The notes beneath the pieces are model-generated. The model was not told where the DNA came from and did not search any database. It saw only the letters and a list, made by a program, of their open reading frames with translations. The translations under genes and the position numbers were made by a program. From the NCBI GenBank assembly GCA_019454835.1, contig JACFNP010000011.1, positions 1-64,000 on the forward strand: DNA of 64,000 nt. Direction: 5' to 3'. Each line of letters begins with the position of its first letter. Within the stretch, counting starts at the first letter, position 1. The stretch is from Rubellimicrobium sp. Lineage in GTDB: Bacteria > Pseudomonadota > Alphaproteobacteria > Rhodobacterales > Rhodobacteraceae. Of this stretch, positions 43,867-52,332 are shown piece by piece.

Positions 43867-44468
43867 TCGCCGCCTTCGCCTCGGGCTTCGGCATCGCGCT
43901 CTCGCTCATCATGGCGGTGGGGGCGCAGAACGCCTTTGTCCTGCGGCAGGGCATAAGGGGCGAGCATGTGTTCGCCGTCGCGCTGATGTGCGCGGCATCG
44001 GACGGGGTGCTGATTGCCGCCGGGGTGGGCGGCTTCGGGGTGCTGGTCGAACAGGTGCCGTGGCTGGGCGCGGTGATGCGCTGGGGCGGGGCGGCGTTCC
44101 TGCTGGTCTATGGCGCGCGCGCGTTCCTGTCGGCCTGGCGCGGCGGCGCGTCGCTGGAAGCAGGCAACGGCGGCAGGCAGGGCCTGGGCGCGGTGCTGGC
44201 GACCTGCTTCGCGCTCACCTGGCTGAACCCGCATGTCTATCTGGATACGGTCGTGCTGATCGGCTCGGTCTCGCGCGGCTGGCCCGGTCAGGGGCTGGCG
44301 TTCGGCACCGGCGCGGCGCTTGCGTCATTCACCTTCTTCTTCTCGCTGGCGCTGGGCGCGCGGGCGCTGGCGCCGCTGTTCGCCAGACCCTCGGCATGGC
44401 GCGTTCTCGATGTCATCGTCGGCGTCGTCATGTGGACGGTCGCTGCGGCGCTGATCCTGAAGGGCTGA
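43848..44468 (+). CDS. argO: LysE/ArgO-family amino acid exporter
   Basis: 206-residue inner-membrane exporter of basic amino acids, with about six hydrophobic segments. The N-terminal [17 protein letters not shown] and the [17 protein letters not shown] motif match ArgO/LysE closely. The GTG start at 43848 lies inside the yebC end (19-nt overlap); no better start is seen before the first membrane helix. The 3' end overlaps the convergent choV gene by 41 nt. Confidence 0.88.
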
Positions 44469-45507
44469 GCCCCAGCCCGCGCGGATCGACCAGCCGGGCC
44501 AGCGCCGAATCGCGCGTCACCTCGCCGATGATCCGCCCGTCCTCGGCCACCGCGACCGGCCAGCCCGAGACGTGAAGCCGCTCCATCACCTCGCGGATGC
44601 TGGTTTCGGGATGGACGGGATCGCCCTCGCCCGAACCGCTGGGGGCCACCATCGCGTCGCGCGCAGTCAGCACGCCCAGCGGGTTCATGTTGGCGACGAA
44701 TTCGGCGACGTAGTCGTTGGCCGGGTCCGAGAAGATTTCGCGCGGGGTGCCGCATTGCACGATGCGGCCGCCCTCCATGATGGCGATGCGGTTGCCCAGC
44801 TTGAACGCCTCGTCCAGCCCGTGGCTCACGAAGATGATGGTGCGGCCACGCCGCGCCTGCAGTTCCAGCAATTCATCCTGCAGCCGGTCGCGGATCAGCG
44901 GGTCGAGCGCGGAAAAGGGTTCATCCATCAGCAGGATCGGCGCGTCGGTGGCGAACGCCCGCGCGAGACCGACGCGCTGCTGCATCCCGCCCGACAGTTC
45001 GCCCACCAGCGCATCGGCGCGTTCGTGCAGGTTCACGAGGCGCAGTTCCTCCTCGACCCGCGCGTTGCGTTGCGCACGCGACTGGCCGCGCAGTTCCAGC
45101 CCGAGGCCCACGTTATCGCGCACCGTGCGCCAGGGCAGCAGGCCGAATTGCTGGAAGACCATCGCAACCTTGGTCTGGCGAAGCTGGCGCAGCGTCGCCG
45201 GATCGGCCTTCGTCACCGATTCCATGCCGCTGGCGGTGCGCACCCGCACCTCGCCCCGGCAGACGGGGTTCAGCCCGTTGACCGCGCGCAGCAGCGTCGA
45301 TTTGCCCGATCCCGAAAGCCCCATGAGGACAAGGATCTCGCCCTCCATGACGTTCAGCGTGCAATCGTGGACACCAAGAACCTGCCCGGTTTCCTTCTGG
45401 ATTTCGGAACGGCTCTTGCCTGCGTCCATCAGCGGCAGCGCCTGTTCGGGGCGGTCGCCGAAAACGATGTTCACGGCGTCGAATTCGACGGCGGTCTGCG
45501 CGCTCAT
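44428..45507 (-). CDS. choV: choline ABC transporter ATP-binding protein
   Basis: 359-residue ATPase of the ProV/OpuA family. Walker A GLSGSGKST near 63-71, signature LSGGMQQRVGLARAF and Walker B LLMDEPFSALDPL. A CBS-like segment follows in the C-terminal part (NPLGVLTARDAM, HVSGWPVAVAEDGRIIGEVTR in part), which in this family senses ionic strength. Assigned to choline because choW and a clear ChoX are in the same operon. ATG at 45507 overlaps the choW stop by 4 nt. Confidence 0.92.
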   Translation of the reverse strand: MSAQTAVEFDAVNIVFGDRPEQALPLMDAGKSRSEIQKETGQVLGVHDCTLNVMEGEILVLMGLSGSGKSTLLRAVNGLNPVCRGEVRVRTASGMESVTKADPATLRQLRQTKVAMVFQQFGLLPWRTVRDNVGLGLELRGQSRAQRNARVEEELRLVNLHERADALVGELSGGMQQRVGLARAFATDAPILLMDEPFSALDPLIRDRLQDELLELQARRGRTIIFVSHGLDEAFKLGNRIAIMEGGRIVQCGTPREIFSDPANDYVAEFVANMNPLGVLTARDAMVAPSGSGEGDPVHPETSIREVMERLHVSGWPVAVAEDGRIIGEVTRDSALARLVDPRGLGLSPSGSAPQRPST

Positions 45508-46529
45508 TTGCGGGTCACCCTCAGCATCCGGTCCAGCATGATCGCCACCACCACGATGATGAGGCCCGATTCAAAGCCCAGCGCGGTGTTCACCGTGTTC
45601 AGCGCACGCACCACCGGCACGCCGAGGCCGTTGGCGCCGACAAGGCCCGCGATGACCACCATCGACAGCGACAGCATGATGGTCTGCGTCAGCCCGGCCA
45701 TGATCTGCGGATAGGCCGAGGGCAGTTCCACCTTCCACAGCGTCTGCCGCTTGGTGCCGCCGAACGCCTGCGCCGCCTCGATCAGCGCGGGCGGGGTGCC
45801 GGTGATGCCCAGATGCGCCATGCGGATCGGCGCGGGCATGACGAAGACCACCGTGGCGATGAGGCCGGGCACCATGCCCAGACCGAACAGGCCGATGACC
45901 GGGATCAGATAGACGAAGGTGGGCAACGTCTGCATGAGGTCGAGGATCGGCGCGATGGCCTGATACAGCCTTGGCCGATGCGCGGCAGCGATGCCGATGG
46001 GCACGCCCACTCCCATGCAGACGACGCAGGCGGTCAGCACCAGCGTCAGCGTCTGCGCGGTCGCGGCGTAATAGCCCTGGTCGATGATGAACAGGAAGCC
46101 GACCAGCACCAGAGCGGCGATCTTCCACGACCTTTGCAGCACGAAGGCAAGAAGGACGAACAGCGCGATGACAAGAAGCTGGTGGGTCTGCTCGGACCAG
46201 TACCACGGATCGAAGCGCCGCCCGCTCAGCCAGTTGGTCCCCGGCGGTCGCAGCAGCGCCGCAAGGATCACGTCGATGATCGTCTGCAGCGAATCCGACA
46301 GCCAGTCGAAGAAGGTCTGCGCGCCGTCCTGGAGATACTTGAATCCCTCGGCCGCATCCTTGCCGACCGGAAGGCTTTCGCTCGTCCGCCCGAGCAGGCG
46401 TTCCGGCAGCCACTGGACGAACCAGATCAGCCCGTGGACGAACCACACCAGCAGGTCGATCACCGCCTGCACGCACCAGCCGATGCCGTAGAGGAGGGTG
46501 CCGATGGCGGCTTTCAGAGCAGAAAACAT
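45504..46529 (-). CDS. choW: choline ABC transporter permease
   Basis: 341-residue inner-membrane permease of the ProW type with about seven hydrophobic segments and the BPD EAA-like loop EAAQAFGGTKRQTLWKVELP (about 255-274). The N-terminal stretch before residue 60 is hydrophobic and aromatic (LIWFVQWLPERLLG). It pairs with ChoV (4-nt overlap). Unusually, it is separated from choX by a hydrolase gene and an intercistronic hairpin, 54 bp before its ATG. Confidence 0.92.
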   Translation of the reverse strand: MFSALKAAIGTLLYGIGWCVQAVIDLLVWFVHGLIWFVQWLPERLLGRTSESLPVGKDAAEGFKYLQDGAQTFFDWLSDSLQTIIDVILAALLRPPGTNWLSGRRFDPWYWSEQTHQLLVIALFVLLAFVLQRSWKIAALVLVGFLFIIDQGYYAATAQTLTLVLTACVVCMGVGVPIGIAAAHRPRLYQAIAPILDLMQTLPTFVYLIPVIGLFGLGMVPGLIATVVFVMPAPIRMAHLGITGTPPALIEAAQAFGGTKRQTLWKVELPSAYPQIMAGLTQTIMLSLSMVVIAGLVGANGLGVPVVRALNTVNTALGFESGLIIVVVAIMLDRMLRVTRK

Positions 46530-46558: not shown

Positions 46559-46578
46559 GCGCCCGGCGAACCGGGCGC
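46559..46578 (-). terminator. intercistronic hairpin between the hydrolase gene and choW
   Basis: Perfect 8-bp arms GCGCCCGG / CCGGGCGC around a CGAA loop, 5 bp after the hydrolase stop. No T-run. Probably an attenuating or stabilising hairpin that sets choX-hydrolase mRNA above choWV mRNA. Confidence 0.6.
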
Positions 46579-46583
46579 TAGCC

Positions 46584-47471
46584 TTACTGCGCGAGAAATT
46601 CCGAGATCATCCTGCCAGTCTGTTCGGGAAGTTCCCAGAACATGTTGTGCCCGTAGCCCTCGAATGTCTCGAACCGCGCCTCCGGCAGCGCGGCACGCAA
46701 GGCATCCTGCGACGCAGCATCGAAGAGCCCGTCCTGATCGCCCCAAAAGACTAGGGTGGGGGCCTCGATCCGCCGCGCGATCGGAGTCCAGTCCGTGATG
46801 GTCAGGCCGATGAGAGCCCCCATCCAGACTTCCGCCGGGCGAGACGCGCTCTCGCGCATCTCATGCTGAAGAAAGTCTTCGTCCACGGGATTGGGATTCG
46901 CATACCACGCCTGCATGAACTCGCCATCAGGATCGACGGGATGAACCATCGCCGGTATCTCATCCCAGAGCCAGTCGCCCGAACCATCGGGTGTTTTCAG
47001 CGCCGACGAGATCAAGACCAAGTGCTCGACGCGCTCAGGCGCAAGACCTGCAACTACACCAGCAGTCATCGAGCCTAACGAATGACCGACAATATCGGCA
47101 CGTTCGATCCCTAACGCATCCATGAACCCAAGGACATCATGCGCCAGCGAATCAAGCCCGTAACAGCAAGCCGGAATATCCGAAGCACCGTGGCCCCGCA
47201 GGTCGAGCGCATAGATCGGCCGCTCTCCGAGCCAAGGGCCTACCAGCGACCAAGACCGCGAATTGTCGGTGTAACCGTGCAGGAGAATCAGCGGAGTCCC
47301 ATCACCCTCACCTAACTCAACGTAGGCGAGATTCAGCCCATCCGCGAGGGTGACTTGCTGACGGGCATCGTTCCATCCGTCCTGTGTGGGGATGGTGACC
47401 TCGGCGGCTGCGGGGAGAGTTCCCGCAGCCAGCACGAATGCGGCCAGCGCCGCACGAAAGCCTCGCATCAT
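46584..47471 (-). CDS. exported alpha/beta hydrolase inside the choline transporter operon
   Basis: 295-residue alpha/beta-hydrolase with a Sec signal (MMRGFRAALAAFVLAAGTLPAAA), so probably periplasmic. Oxyanion HG at 65-66 (LILLHGYTDN), nucleophile Ser131 in GHSLGSM, likely acid Asp247 in WGDQDGLF and His275 in GYGHNMFWE. Its ATG at 47471 overlaps the choX stop by 4 nt, so it is co-translated with the choline-binding protein. GC content is visibly lower than in neighbours (two 60-nt lines give 52% and 57%), suggesting later acquisition. Inference: it hydrolyses choline esters to free choline for the transporter. Specificity is unproven; a lactonase or haloperoxidase-like role is possible. 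Confidence 0.8.
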   Translation of the reverse strand: MMRGFRAALAAFVLAAGTLPAAAEVTIPTQDGWNDARQQVTLADGLNLAYVELGEGDGTPLILLHGYTDNSRSWSLVGPWLGERPIYALDLRGHGASDIPACCYGLDSLAHDVLGFMDALGIERADIVGHSLGSMTAGVVAGLAPERVEHLVLISSALKTPDGSGDWLWDEIPAMVHPVDPDGEFMQAWYANPNPVDEDFLQHEMRESASRPAEVWMGALIGLTITDWTPIARRIEAPTLVFWGDQDGLFDAASQDALRAALPEARFETFEGYGHNMFWELPEQTGRMISEFLAQ

Positions 47472-48391
47472 CCGTTCAGCGCCGCAGTAACCGCCGCCAG
47501 CGCGTCGCCGCCGTCGATGGTGGTCACGCCTTCCAGCCACGGCCCGAGCACTTCCTCATGTGCGGCAAGCCAGTCGCGGGCCGCGTCGCGCGGCTCGACG
47601 CCGTCGTCGAGGATCGCGCCCATGATCTCGTTCTCCATGGCCAGCGTGAACTCGAGGTTCTTCAGGAACTGCCCGACGTTCGGGCATTCGTCGACCCAGC
47701 CTGCGGGCGTGTTGGTGCGTACCTCGGCGCCGCCGAAATCGGGGCCGAACCAGTCGTCGCCGCCCGACAGATAGGTGATGTCGAAATTGGCGTTCATCGG
47801 GTGCGGTTCCCAGGCAAGGAACACGATGGGTTCGTCGCGGCTGTCGGCGCGGGCGACCTGCGCCAACATCCCCTGCTCCGAGCTTTCGACAAGCTCGAAA
47901 TCGCCCAGGTCGAAGGCGTCGGCCTCGATCATCTCGAGGATCAGGCGGTTGCCGTCGTTGCCGGGTTCGATGCCGTAGATTTCATCGTTCAGTTCGTCGG
48001 CATGGGTGGCGATGTCGGCATAGTCCGTGATGCCGATGGCCGCGCCCGCGCCGTTGGTGCCCAGCGTGTATTTCGCGCCGACAAGATTGGTGCGCACGGT
48101 ATCGACGGTGCCCGCGTCGCGGTAGCTGGCGATATCGCCCTCCATCGTCGGCATCCAGTTGCCGAGGAACACGTCCACATCCCCCGAGGCGAGCGACTGG
48201 TAGGTCACCGGGACCGACAGGATCAGGATTTCGGTCTCGTAGCCCAGCGCATCCAGCACATAGGTCGTCGCCGCCGTGGTCGAGGTGATGTCGGTCCAGC
48301 CGACATCGGAAAAGACGATATGGTCGCAGTCGGCGAACGCCGGTGCGGCGGCAAGGACGGCGATGGCCGATAGGGTGGTGGTGAGTCGCAT
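47468..48391 (-). CDS. choX: choline-binding periplasmic protein
   Basis: 307-residue binding protein of the choline ABC importer. Signal peptide MRLTTTLSAIAVLAAAPAFA. The ligand box known from rhizobial ChoX (Trp43, Trp90, Tyr119, Trp205, with Asp45 and Asn156) is present here as Trp32, Trp79, Tyr108, Trp194, Asp34 and Asn145, all shifted by exactly 11, which strongly supports choline/acetylcholine binding. It opens the choX-hydrolase-choW-choV operon; the promoter and BetI site lie between it and the divergent betI. Confidence 0.95.
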   Translation of the reverse strand: MRLTTTLSAIAVLAAAPAFADCDHIVFSDVGWTDITSTTAATTYVLDALGYETEILILSVPVTYQSLASGDVDVFLGNWMPTMEGDIASYRDAGTVDTVRTNLVGAKYTLGTNGAGAAIGITDYADIATHADELNDEIYGIEPGNDGNRLILEMIEADAFDLGDFELVESSEQGMLAQVARADSRDEPIVFLAWEPHPMNANFDITYLSGGDDWFGPDFGGAEVRTNTPAGWVDECPNVGQFLKNLEFTLAMENEIMGAILDDGVEPRDAARDWLAAHEEVLGPWLEGVTTIDGGDALAAVTAALNG

Positions 48392-48434: not shown

Positions 48435-48448
48435 ATTGACGGATCAAT
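48435..48448. promoter_or_regulatory. BetI operator candidate
   Basis: ATTGA-CGGA-TCAAT, a perfect 5-bp inverted repeat resembling the BetI box (ATTGAACGTTCAAT) known in other bacteria. It lies between the divergent choX (48391) and betI (48490) starts, so BetI could repress uptake and its own gene until choline is present. Confidence 0.75.
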
Positions 48449-48489: not shown

Positions 48490-49068
48490 ATGATGTCACG
48501 CAGCAAGGTCGAGCCTATACGCCGGGCGGCGCTGTTGAAAGCCACGATCGACGAGATCGGGCAGCAGGGTTCGCTCGATGTCACGGTCGCGCAGATCGCG
48601 CGGCGGGCAGGCATGTCGCCTGCGCTCGCGCATCATTACTTCGGCACCAAGGACGACATCTTCCTTGCGGCGATGCGCCATATCCTCAAGCTCTACGGGG
48701 CCGAGGTGCGCGGCGCGCTGACCATGGCCGAAGGCCCGCGCGCCCGGCTCGAGGCGGTGATCCGCGCCGGATTCGGGCCGTCGAACTTTCACCCGTCGGT
48801 CATTGCCGCCTGGCTGAACTTCTGGGTGATGGCCCGCCACAACGAAGGCGCGGCGCGGTTGCTGCGCATCTACGAGGGGCGGTTGCGGGCGAATCTGCTG
48901 TTCAACCTGCGCCCGCTGGTCGGCCCGCGCGCGCCCGAGGTGGCCGAGCGAATCGCCGCGCTCATCGACGGCGTGTTCCTGCGTCAGGGCGTGCGGATGG
49001 GCAGCCCCGACCGGGCCGAGGCCGTGCGGCTGGTGCTGGGCGGGATCGACTGCGAGCTGGGGCCTTGA
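48490..49068 (+). CDS. betI: transcriptional regulator BetI (TetR family)
   Basis: 192-residue TetR-type repressor controlling betaine synthesis. The HTH is at about 31-58 (VTVAQIARRAGMSPALAHHYFG in part). FHPSVIAAWLNFW and the C-terminal ligand domain match BetI. ATG at 48490 is immediately followed by a second ATG, either of which could be used. It is divergent from choX across a BetI-box-like palindrome, and leads betB-betA on the same strand. No choline sulfatase gene (betC) lies between betI and betB, unlike in rhizobia. Confidence 0.93.
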   Translation: MMSRSKVEPIRRAALLKATIDEIGQQGSLDVTVAQIARRAGMSPALAHHYFGTKDDIFLAAMRHILKLYGAEVRGALTMAEGPRARLEAVIRAGFGPSNFHPSVIAAWLNFWVMARHNEGAARLLRIYEGRLRANLLFNLRPLVGPRAPEVAERIAALIDGVFLRQGVRMGSPDRAEAVRLVLGGIDCELGP

Positions 49069-49198: not shown

Positions 49199-50659
49199 AT
49201 GCCCTATCCCCTTCAGCCTGCAGGCAGCCATTTCATCGACGGCGACTATGTGGACGACCCGGCGGGCACGCCGATCCCGGTGATCTACCCCGCGACCGGC
49301 GAACAGATCGCCACCGTCCATGCTGCCACCCCGGCGCTGGTCGAACGCGCCATCGCCAGCGCCGCGCGCGCGCAGGCGGCATGGGCCGCACTGCGCCCGG
49401 TGGAACGCGGTCGGGTGCTGCGCCGCGCCGCCGACCTGATCCGCGAACGCAATCACGACCTGTCGGTTCTGGAAACCCGTGACACCGGCAAGCCCTTGTC
49501 GGAAACGCTGGTGGCCGATGCCACCTCGGGCGCGGATGCGCTGGAATATTTCGGCGGGCTGGCGGGCACGCTTGGCGGCGAAACCGTGCCTGTGGGCGGT
49601 GGCGATTTCATCTACACGATCCGCGAACCCCTGGGGGTTTGCGTCGGCATCGGCGCCTGGAACTATCCGACCCAGATCGCCTGCTGGAAATCCGCCCCCG
49701 CGCTGGTCTGCGGCAATGCCATGGTGTTCAAGCCGTCGGAAACCACGCCGCTGGCCGCGCTGAAGGTCGCGGAAATCCTGCACGAGGCGGGCCTGCCTGC
49801 GGGCGTCTTCAACGTGGTGCAGGGCCTGGGCGAGGTTGGCGGGGCGCTGGTCTCTGACCCGCGCGTGGCCAAGGTGTCGCTGACGGGTTCGGTGCCCACC
49901 GGGCGGCGCGTCTATGCGGCGGCGGCGGCGGGCATGAAGCATGTCACGATGGAGCTGGGCGGCAAGTCGCCGCTGGTGATCTTTGACGACGCCGACCTCG
50001 ACAGCGCGGTGTCGGGCGCGATCATGGGCAATTTCTATTCGACCGGGCAGGTCTGTTCCAACGGCACGCGGGTCTTCGTGCAGCGCCCGATGAAGGAGGC
50101 GTTCCTTGCCCGCCTGACCGAACGCCTGCAAGGCGCGGTGATCGGCGACCCGCTGGATATGGCGACGAATTTCGGCCCGATGACCAGCGAGCGGCAACTG
50201 GAAATCGTGCTGGGCTATATCCAGAAGGGCGTCGCGGAAGGCGCGCGGCTGGTCCATGGCGGCCACCGGCTGAACCGGCCCGGCTTCTGGATCGAACCCA
50301 CGGTCTTTGCCGATGTCACTGACGACATGACCATCGCCCGCGAGGAAATCTTCGGCCCGGTGCTGTCGGTGCTGGATTTCGACACCGAGGACGAGGCGCT
50401 CTCCCGCGCCAATGCCACCGAATTCGGGCTGGCCGCAGGCGTGTTCACCGCCGATCTGGCGCGCGCGCACCGCATGGCTGCCGGGTTCCAGGCCGGAACC
50501 TGCTTCATCAACGCCTACAACCTCACCCCGGTTGAAGGGCCGTTCGGCGCGGTGAAGCAATCGGGCGTGGGCCGCGAGAACTCGCGCCTCGCCGTAGATC
50601 ACTACAGCCAGATGAAATCCGTCTACGTCGGCACCCAGCCGTTTGAAGCACAGTTCTGA
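49199..50659 (+). CDS. betB: betaine aldehyde dehydrogenase
   Basis: 486-residue NAD(P)-dependent aldehyde dehydrogenase that converts betaine aldehyde to glycine betaine. Catalytic Glu252 ([10 protein letters not shown]) and Cys286 ([12 protein letters not shown]) are present, with [13 protein letters not shown] and [11 protein letters not shown] typical of BetB. ATG at 49199 follows GGAGAG. 130 bp after betI and 11 bp before betA; with betA it gives the two-step choline oxidation, osmoprotectant or catabolic. Confidence 0.97.
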
Positions 50660-50670
50660 AGGGGGTCACC

Positions 50671-52332
50671 ATGATCGCCGATTACGTCATCGTGGGCGCC
50701 GGGTCCGCCGGGTCCGCCATCGCCTTCCGGCTGGCCGAGGCCGGGAAATCCGTCATCGTCGTCGAGCACGGCGGCAGCGACTGGGGGCCGTTCATCAACA
50801 TGCCCGGCGCGCTGTCCTATCCGATGAACATGGGCATCTACGACTGGGGTTTTCAGACCGAACCCGAGCCGCATCTGGGCGGCCGGGTGCTGGCCACGCC
50901 GCGCGGCAAGGTGATCGGCGGGTCGTCCTCGATCAACGGCATGGTCTATGTGCGCGGCCATGCCAGGGATTACGACCATTGGGTCGAGATGGGCGCGCAG
51001 GGCTGGGGCTATGCCGATGTCCTGCCCTATTTCCAGCGGCTTGAAGACTGGCACGGCGACGAGCGCGAAGGCGAGGGCGATGCAAGCTGGCGCGGGCGCG
51101 GCGGCCCGCTGCATGTGACGCGCGGCCCGCGCGACAACCCGCTGACCCGCGCCTTCGTCGAGGCGGGCAGACAGGCGGGCTATCCGGTGACCGGGGACTA
51201 CAACGGCCGCCAGCAGGAAGGCTTCGGCGCCATGGAGGCGACGATCTGGAAGGGCAAGCGCTGGTCCGCCGCCAACGCCTATCTGCGCCCGGCAATGAAG
51301 ACCGGCAATTGCAAGGTCGTGCGCGGGCTGGCGCGCAAGGTGGTCATCACCGACGGACGCGCCACCGGGGTGGAAATCTCGCACGGCGGCACGGTCGAGG
51401 TGATCGCGGCCCGCGCCGAGGTCATCATCGCGGCGTCGTCGATCAACTCGCCCAAGCTGCTGATGCTGTCGGGCATCGGCCCCGCCGCGCATCTGGCCGA
51501 ACACGGCATCCCGGTGGTGGCCGACCGTCCGGGCGTCGGGCAGAACCTGCAGGATCATCTGGAAATGTATATTCAGGTCCAGTCGAAACTGCCGGTGACG
51601 CTGTACAAATACTGGAATCTGTTCGGCAAGGGTTTCGTCGGCGCGCAATGGCTGTTCACCGGCAAAGGGGTCGGCGCCTCGAACCAGTTCGAGAGCTGCG
51701 CCTTCATCCGTTCGCGCGCGGGGGTGGAATATCCCGACATTCAATACCATTTCATCCCGATCGCGGTGCGTTACGACGGGCAGGCGGCGGCGGGCGGCCA
51801 CGGGTTTCAGGCCCATGTCGGGCCGATGCGGTCTCCGTCGCGCGGCGAGGTGACCTTGCGCTCGGCCAACCCCGAGGACCGGCCGCGCATCCTGTTCAAC
51901 TACATGTCGCACGAGGACGACTGGCGCGATTTCCGCGCCTGCATCCGCCTGACGCGCGAGATTTTCGCGCAGGAGGCGTTTGCGCCCTATGCGGGCCGCG
52001 AAATCCAGCCCGGCGCGGAACTGCAGACAGACGAGGAACTGAACGGCTTCATCCGCGACCATGTCGAATCGGCCTATCACCCCTGCGGAAGCTGCCGCAT
52101 GGGCGCGGCGGACGACCCGATGGCGGTGGTCGATCCCGAGACCCGCGTGATCGGGGTCGAGGGGCTGCGGGTCGCCGATTCCTCGATCTTCCCGCAGGTG
52201 ACGAACGGCAACCTCAACGGCCCCTCGATCATGACCGGCGAGAAGGCGGCGGACCACATCCTGGGCCGCAGGCTGCCGCCGTCGAATCTGCAGCCGTGGA
52301 TCAACCCCGACTGGCGCACCGCGCAAAGGTAG
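50671..52332 (+). CDS. betA: choline dehydrogenase
   Basis: 553-residue membrane-associated GMC flavoprotein oxidising choline to betaine aldehyde. FAD motif [16 protein letters not shown] (8-23), [31 protein letters not shown] in part, and the catalytic His in [11 protein letters not shown] near residue 470. GC-rich coding like its neighbours. It begins 11 bp after betB with a GAAGGGGG ribosome site. Two repeats follow 21 bp after the stop. Confidence 0.97.

Follow-up and report, generated by a model that had tools for sequence, protein, structure and literature searches.

A gene for an exported alpha/beta hydrolase lies between choX and choW in a Rubellimicrobium sp.. Its predicted place in the choline (BetI) regulon has good support from a conserved gene order, from BetI operators at both linked and unlinked copies, and from betI associations of its homologues in Sinorhizobium. 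The enzyme very probably releases choline from a bigger molecule of which choline is a part, most likely an acetylcholine-like ester. Our fuller reading – that a serine esterase belonging to the BetI regulon cleaves choline conjugates, most likely small carboxylic choline esters, in the periplasm – has, in our judgment, a somewhat better than even chance of being correct. The locus appears to be a variant of the bet/cho choline-utilization locus that was not found described before in the literature searched. Here, we describe this locus within a 64,000-nucleotide stretch of DNA (the window; contig JACFNP010000011.1), and compare it with loci carrying homologous hydrolases.

Organization of the cho/bet locus

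All three subunits of a choXWV importer are encoded in the window with scores above their curated cut-offs (Table 1), and the best solved relative of this ChoX is S. meliloti ChoX (2reg, 1.8e-126). The minus strand carries choX, the hydrolase gene, choW and choV in that order, and betI, betB and betA run in the opposite direction from position 48490. The original prediction described an exported hydrolase with Ser131, Asp247 and His275, overlapping choX by 4 nt, positioned before choWV and lower in GC than its neighbors, and each of these points was borne out: the open frame, triad and signal-peptide-like N-terminus are present, the ATGA at 47468-47471 serves as both choX stop and hydrolase start, choW (45504-46529) and choV (44428-45507) follow downstream on the minus strand, and the GC content is 60.9% as against 65-68% for choX, choW and choV (GC3 of 0.68 versus 0.85-0.89). 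Same-position orthologues in three other genomes (loci L008, L017 and L019) have a GC3 of 0.90-0.96, matching their neighbor genes, so the low value reflects local history rather than a property of the system, perhaps gene exchange in place in the Rubellimicrobium genome.

The hairpin between the hydrolase gene and choW (folding energy z of -3.55 in the window) may form a boundary between mRNA segments, setting expression of choX and the hydrolase above that of choWV; in three relatives, the folding energy at this junction was not above shuffles, giving no sign of a conserved hairpin. The window's genome also encodes a second ChoX (G000:C46:1788-2711, L035), 81% identical to the first, with neither choWV nor a hydrolase within the 9 kb read.

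Table 1. Features of the choline locus, in window coordinates
Feature	Position	Strand	Evidence
choV, choline ABC ATPase with CBS domain	44428..45507	-	TIGR03415 above cut-off; CBS match
choW, choline ABC permease	45504..46529	-	TIGR03416 above cut-off
GC hairpin, TTCG loop, between hydrolase and choW	46559..46578	-	Perfect 8-bp inverted repeat
Exported alpha/beta hydrolase, candidate choline-ester hydrolase	46584..47471	-	295 aa; Pfam Abhydrolase_1 3.1e-35
His275 codon	46647..46649	-	Invariant, 20 homologues
Asp247 codon	46731..46733	-	Invariant, 20 homologues
Nucleophile Ser131 codon, within GHSLG	47079..47081	-	
Signal-peptide-like N-terminus, residues 1-23	47403..47471	-	AxA motif before Glu24; sequence, hydropathy
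choX, choline-binding protein	47468..48391	-	TIGR03414 423 bits, cut-off 379; ATGA overlap with hydrolase
Putative BetI operator ATTGACGGATCAAT, choX/betI intergenic	48435..48448	.	Class of verified R. pomeroyi BetI1 box (PMC12442346)
betI, choline-responsive repressor, divergent from choX	48490..49068	+	TIGR03384 206.8 bits, cut-off 201.3
betB, betaine-aldehyde dehydrogenase	49199..50659	+	TIGR01804 above cut-off
betA, choline dehydrogenase	50671..52332	+	TIGR01810 above cut-off

Recurrence of the gene order

A search for the choX-hydrolase-choW order elsewhere, proposed with the original prediction, found it in five more Rhodobacteraceae genomes, each with choV following and betI divergent as in the window: L008 (Pararhodobacter sp. 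SW119), L017 (G293), L019 (G292), L049 (G779) and L050 (G776). The order is therefore not due to chance and, because the hydrolases of these five relatives are 57-70% identical to that of the window, the arrangement has been kept through long divergence. The hydrolase has few close relatives: eight loci came out of a scan across bacterial genomes, of which just three exceeded 50% identity. Within the family, 6 of 395 genomes have the gene, whereas choX was found in 36 of 51 family genomes.

The choline link is not universal among exported homologues, as four of 13 (L007, L018, L022 and L048) have neither adjoining cho or bet genes nor a clear BetI box. At L048 (3502-8409, in G778) transposase-like genes are found within a few kilobases of the hydrolase gene, which lacks a BetI box, suggesting that the hydrolase gene moves between genomes. 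The L022 homologue, on a Paracoccus seriniphilus plasmid, lies between genes for histidine degradation and a cluster for peptide transport, and has no choline genes in its vicinity. These hut genes raised urocanoylcholine as a substrate, a passing thought only, which we set aside because the hydrolase gene is convergent to that for urocanate hydratase. At L006 (790-6882), genes for a TRAP transporter, the binding protein belonging to it and a sulfatase with distant similarity to choline sulfatase precede the homologue, which nevertheless has a BetI box of its own.

Predicted BetI operators at linked and unlinked copies

The operator of R. pomeroyi BetI1 has been footprinted as ATTGACG*CGTCAAT (PMC12442346). 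A pattern for this 14-bp box, ATTGAYNNRTCAAT, has a single match in the window (48435-48448, with 0.01 expected), which is also the only full BetI site in the window's genome, and the box is found in the betI/choX promoter at all six cho-linked hydrolase loci. We scanned nine whole genomes with a 13-base core and read the flanking genes afterwards. The window's genome (G000), G292, G293 and G776 each have one full box, at betI/choX. In G737 and G742, the choXWV genes at betI/choX are without the hydrolase, which is encoded elsewhere. G737 has two full boxes, one at betI/choX and the other just before the hydrolase gene, which is on a different contig. G742 has three, of which one is at betI/choX and one precedes the hydrolase gene, its palindrome ending 21 bp before the ATG. 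The box at the hydrolase gene is perfect in both genomes. The third G742 box (L078, about 6747) is unexplained and has no choline gene beside it; it could be a chance match or a member of the regulon not yet recognized.

From genome size and the number of sites, we estimate that the probability of a non-bet box falling by chance in the 100 bp or so before any one particular gene is only a few in 100,000 for each of G737 and G742. A box thus lies in the promoter of the hydrolase operon and also at the unlinked copies, and the latter are the strongest evidence, because they put the hydrolase under the same operator sequence even outside the operon. BetI would be expected to bind these predicted boxes.

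Sinorhizobium homologues

In S. meliloti, pSymA (L021) encodes an exported homologue (53% identity) whose gene is divergent from a betI gene scoring over the TIGR03384 cut-off. Plasmids of S. fredii and a Sinorhizobium sp. (L024 and L025) have betI divergent from choX, which is followed by an overlapping homologue of 37-39% identity. The L024 and L025 proteins have no signal peptide as judged by hydropathy, so the cellular compartment varies among these relatives. In a tree, they occupy a long, well-supported branch away from the Rhodobacteraceae group, indicating that the association with choX is either very old or of repeated origin; the tree leaves the branching order inside the exported group unsettled.

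Enzyme class and active site

The hydrolase belongs to the alpha/beta hydrolase superfamily, scoring 122 bits against Abhydrolase_1 (curated cut-off 25.8), with GHSLG at residues 129-133, the Ser131/Asp247/His275 triad, and fold matches of Z above 30. By eye, and from the hydropathy of the first residues, its N-terminus (MMRGFRAALAAFVLAAGTLPAAA before EV) looks like a Sec signal peptide, and the protein is predicted to be exported to the periplasm. The AlphaFold model has a pLDDT of 89.9 overall and of about 45 across residues 1-20.

Curated families gave no known enzyme name, as none of the 25 NCBIfam families listed (equivalogs including PcaD, BioH, MenH, macrolide esterases and acetoin E2) reaches its cut-off; the best score among the matches listed is 119.6 bits against a cut-off of 307, and the PcaD model scores 98 bits against 256. 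An animal-type cholinesterase (carboxylesterase type B) was rejected, with no PF00135 match at 0.001, as was an SGNH/GDSL cholinesterase of the ChoE kind, the nucleophile being in GHSLG within an Abhydrolase fold instead. The model aligns with the PcaD-type enol-lactonase 2xua (Z 33.5, 251 residues) and the P. fluorescens aryl esterase 1va4 (Z 32.0, 253 residues) at an rmsd of 1.9, and shares with both the fold and helical cap, although they are just 20-23% identical to it and act in other pathways. Scores are nearly equal for enol-lactonases, aryl esterases, C-C hydrolases and other capped alpha/beta hydrolases; with esterases and lactonases thus tied, the fold points to no one substrate.

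Across the ten exported homologues that were compared, seven aromatic residues (W74, W167, W169, W189, Y190, W216 and W279, with Trp 74, 167 and 169 numbered as output by the alignment script) are invariant. Five are changed in outer relatives, Trp216 and Trp279 being general. The conserved aromatics are compatible with a predicted pocket for a quaternary ammonium group.

Proposed substrate and pathway

Choline esters, acetylcholine among them, occur widely in plants and animals. ChoX of S. meliloti binds acetylcholine (Kd about 100 uM) as well as choline (2.3 uM) (PMC2635726), and S. meliloti betICBA is reportedly induced by acetylcholine (PMC6189696; PMC12442346). From these observations we infer that the substrate would be a choline ester of a carboxylic acid, of which acetylcholine is the simplest case.

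In the pathway that we propose, a choline ester would reach the periplasm and be cleaved to choline and an acid by the Ser131/His275/Asp247 charge relay, beside ChoX. The acid would be used separately, and the freed choline would be captured by ChoX, imported by ChoWV and oxidized by BetA and BetB to glycine betaine. Choline would also relieve BetI repression, so that the enzyme, the importer and the oxidation genes would rise together. The hydrolase would act alongside choline sulfatase, not in its place.

Alternative explanations

The choline link could hold for a different substrate, with the enzyme cleaving another quaternary-ammonium or phospholipid-derived ester (e.g. lysophosphatidylcholine, an acylcarnitine or a betaine ester) and choline or a relative being freed indirectly. 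BetI control is compatible with any choline source, and the solved structure that the hydrolase matches best by sequence (6i8w) bears the title of a membrane phospholipase A. However, the identity to 6i8w is only 26-27%, there are no lipid or carnitine genes beside the hydrolase in the six cho operons, and direct coupling to ChoX favors a substrate that yields choline itself; we regard this explanation as unlikely, if still a serious competitor. More improbable is the reading in which the enzyme is an esterase or lactonase of a general kind, acts on a substrate that has nothing to do with choline and is encoded in a strongly expressed operon by accident. The generic fold, the several homologues outside choline loci, and the unusual GC3 in the window, suggestive of gene exchange, are all in its favor, but the BetI operators just upstream of hydrolase genes unlinked to cho genes in two genomes, and the betI and choX associations seen separately in Sinorhizobium, count against it. 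A passenger gene would not be expected to gain BetI operators repeatedly or to become associated with betI and choX.

Cleavage of a choline ester by the hydrolase, the reading we prefer, was originally coupled to the idea that the enzyme is a functional replacement for choline sulfatase (BetC), whose gene was noted as missing between betI and betB. The absence is real, and the betC query found no copy in the whole assembly to which the window belongs (94% complete), nor in G293; the same query found betC in four of five related genomes. Nonetheless, four of the six cho-operon genomes (L008, L019, L049 and L050) have betC beside betI, in the betI/betB gap, as well as the hydrolase, and in G034, G737 and G742 betC is located elsewhere in the genome. 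This co-occurrence contradicts a stand-in role and makes the two enzymes complementary, such that one cell can use both. Moreover, alpha/beta hydrolases of this kind cleave carboxylic rather than sulfate esters, and the hydrolase matches alpha/beta hydrolase families only, not sulfatases. Replacement of BetC is thus very improbable. What stands of the earlier proposal is an exported hydrolase that belongs to the choline system and plausibly releases choline from an ester, a reading reinforced by synteny, BetI operators and acetylcholine binding by ChoX.

Relation to known choline systems

The betICBA, BetC and ChoXWV systems of S. meliloti and the Roseobacter group use the same regulator, importer and oxidation genes as the locus described here, and BetC is likewise a BetI-controlled conjugate hydrolase yielding choline. 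In R. pomeroyi, betC is induced by choline, which its enzyme itself produces, paralleling the control proposed for the hydrolase. BetC differs in that it is a class I sulfatase and its gene adjoins betI, whereas the exported serine alpha/beta hydrolase is encoded between choX and choW and presumably acts on a carboxylic ester. ChoE of Pseudomonas aeruginosa is a bacterial acetylcholinesterase, described as exported and of the SGNH/GDSL type. It is similar to the hydrolase in presumed substrate class and exported location, but that description sets it apart from an Abhydrolase_1 protein with a GHSLG motif.

We found no description of a choline-ester hydrolase at a bet/cho locus in the literature searched, which took in few subscription journals. 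Tentatively, and with rather less than even confidence, we propose that the hydrolases constitute an alphaproteobacterial family of periplasmic cholinesterases that is controlled by BetI, translationally coupled to ChoX and unrelated to either ChoE or animal cholinesterases. Such a family would form a carboxylic-ester branch of choline salvage beside the sulfate-ester branch of BetC, and its pSymA member would explain the reported acetylcholine induction of the S. meliloti bet genes. A BetI-controlled esterase would supply the step that frees choline from esters in Alphaproteobacteria, for which no assignment was found in the literature searched, and would account for acetylcholine binding by ChoX together with the S. 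meliloti bet response; its gene would be a marker of choline-ester use in marine and plant-associated bacteria. The comparison also suggests that choline salvage is built of modules in which a ChoX-type binding protein is paired with differing conjugate hydrolases.

A choX paralogue in G737 (L083, 3773-6312) overlaps the start of betC, forming a choline sulfate module that mirrors the choX-hydrolase arrangement and indicating that a ChoX-type gene can couple to that of a choline-conjugate hydrolase.
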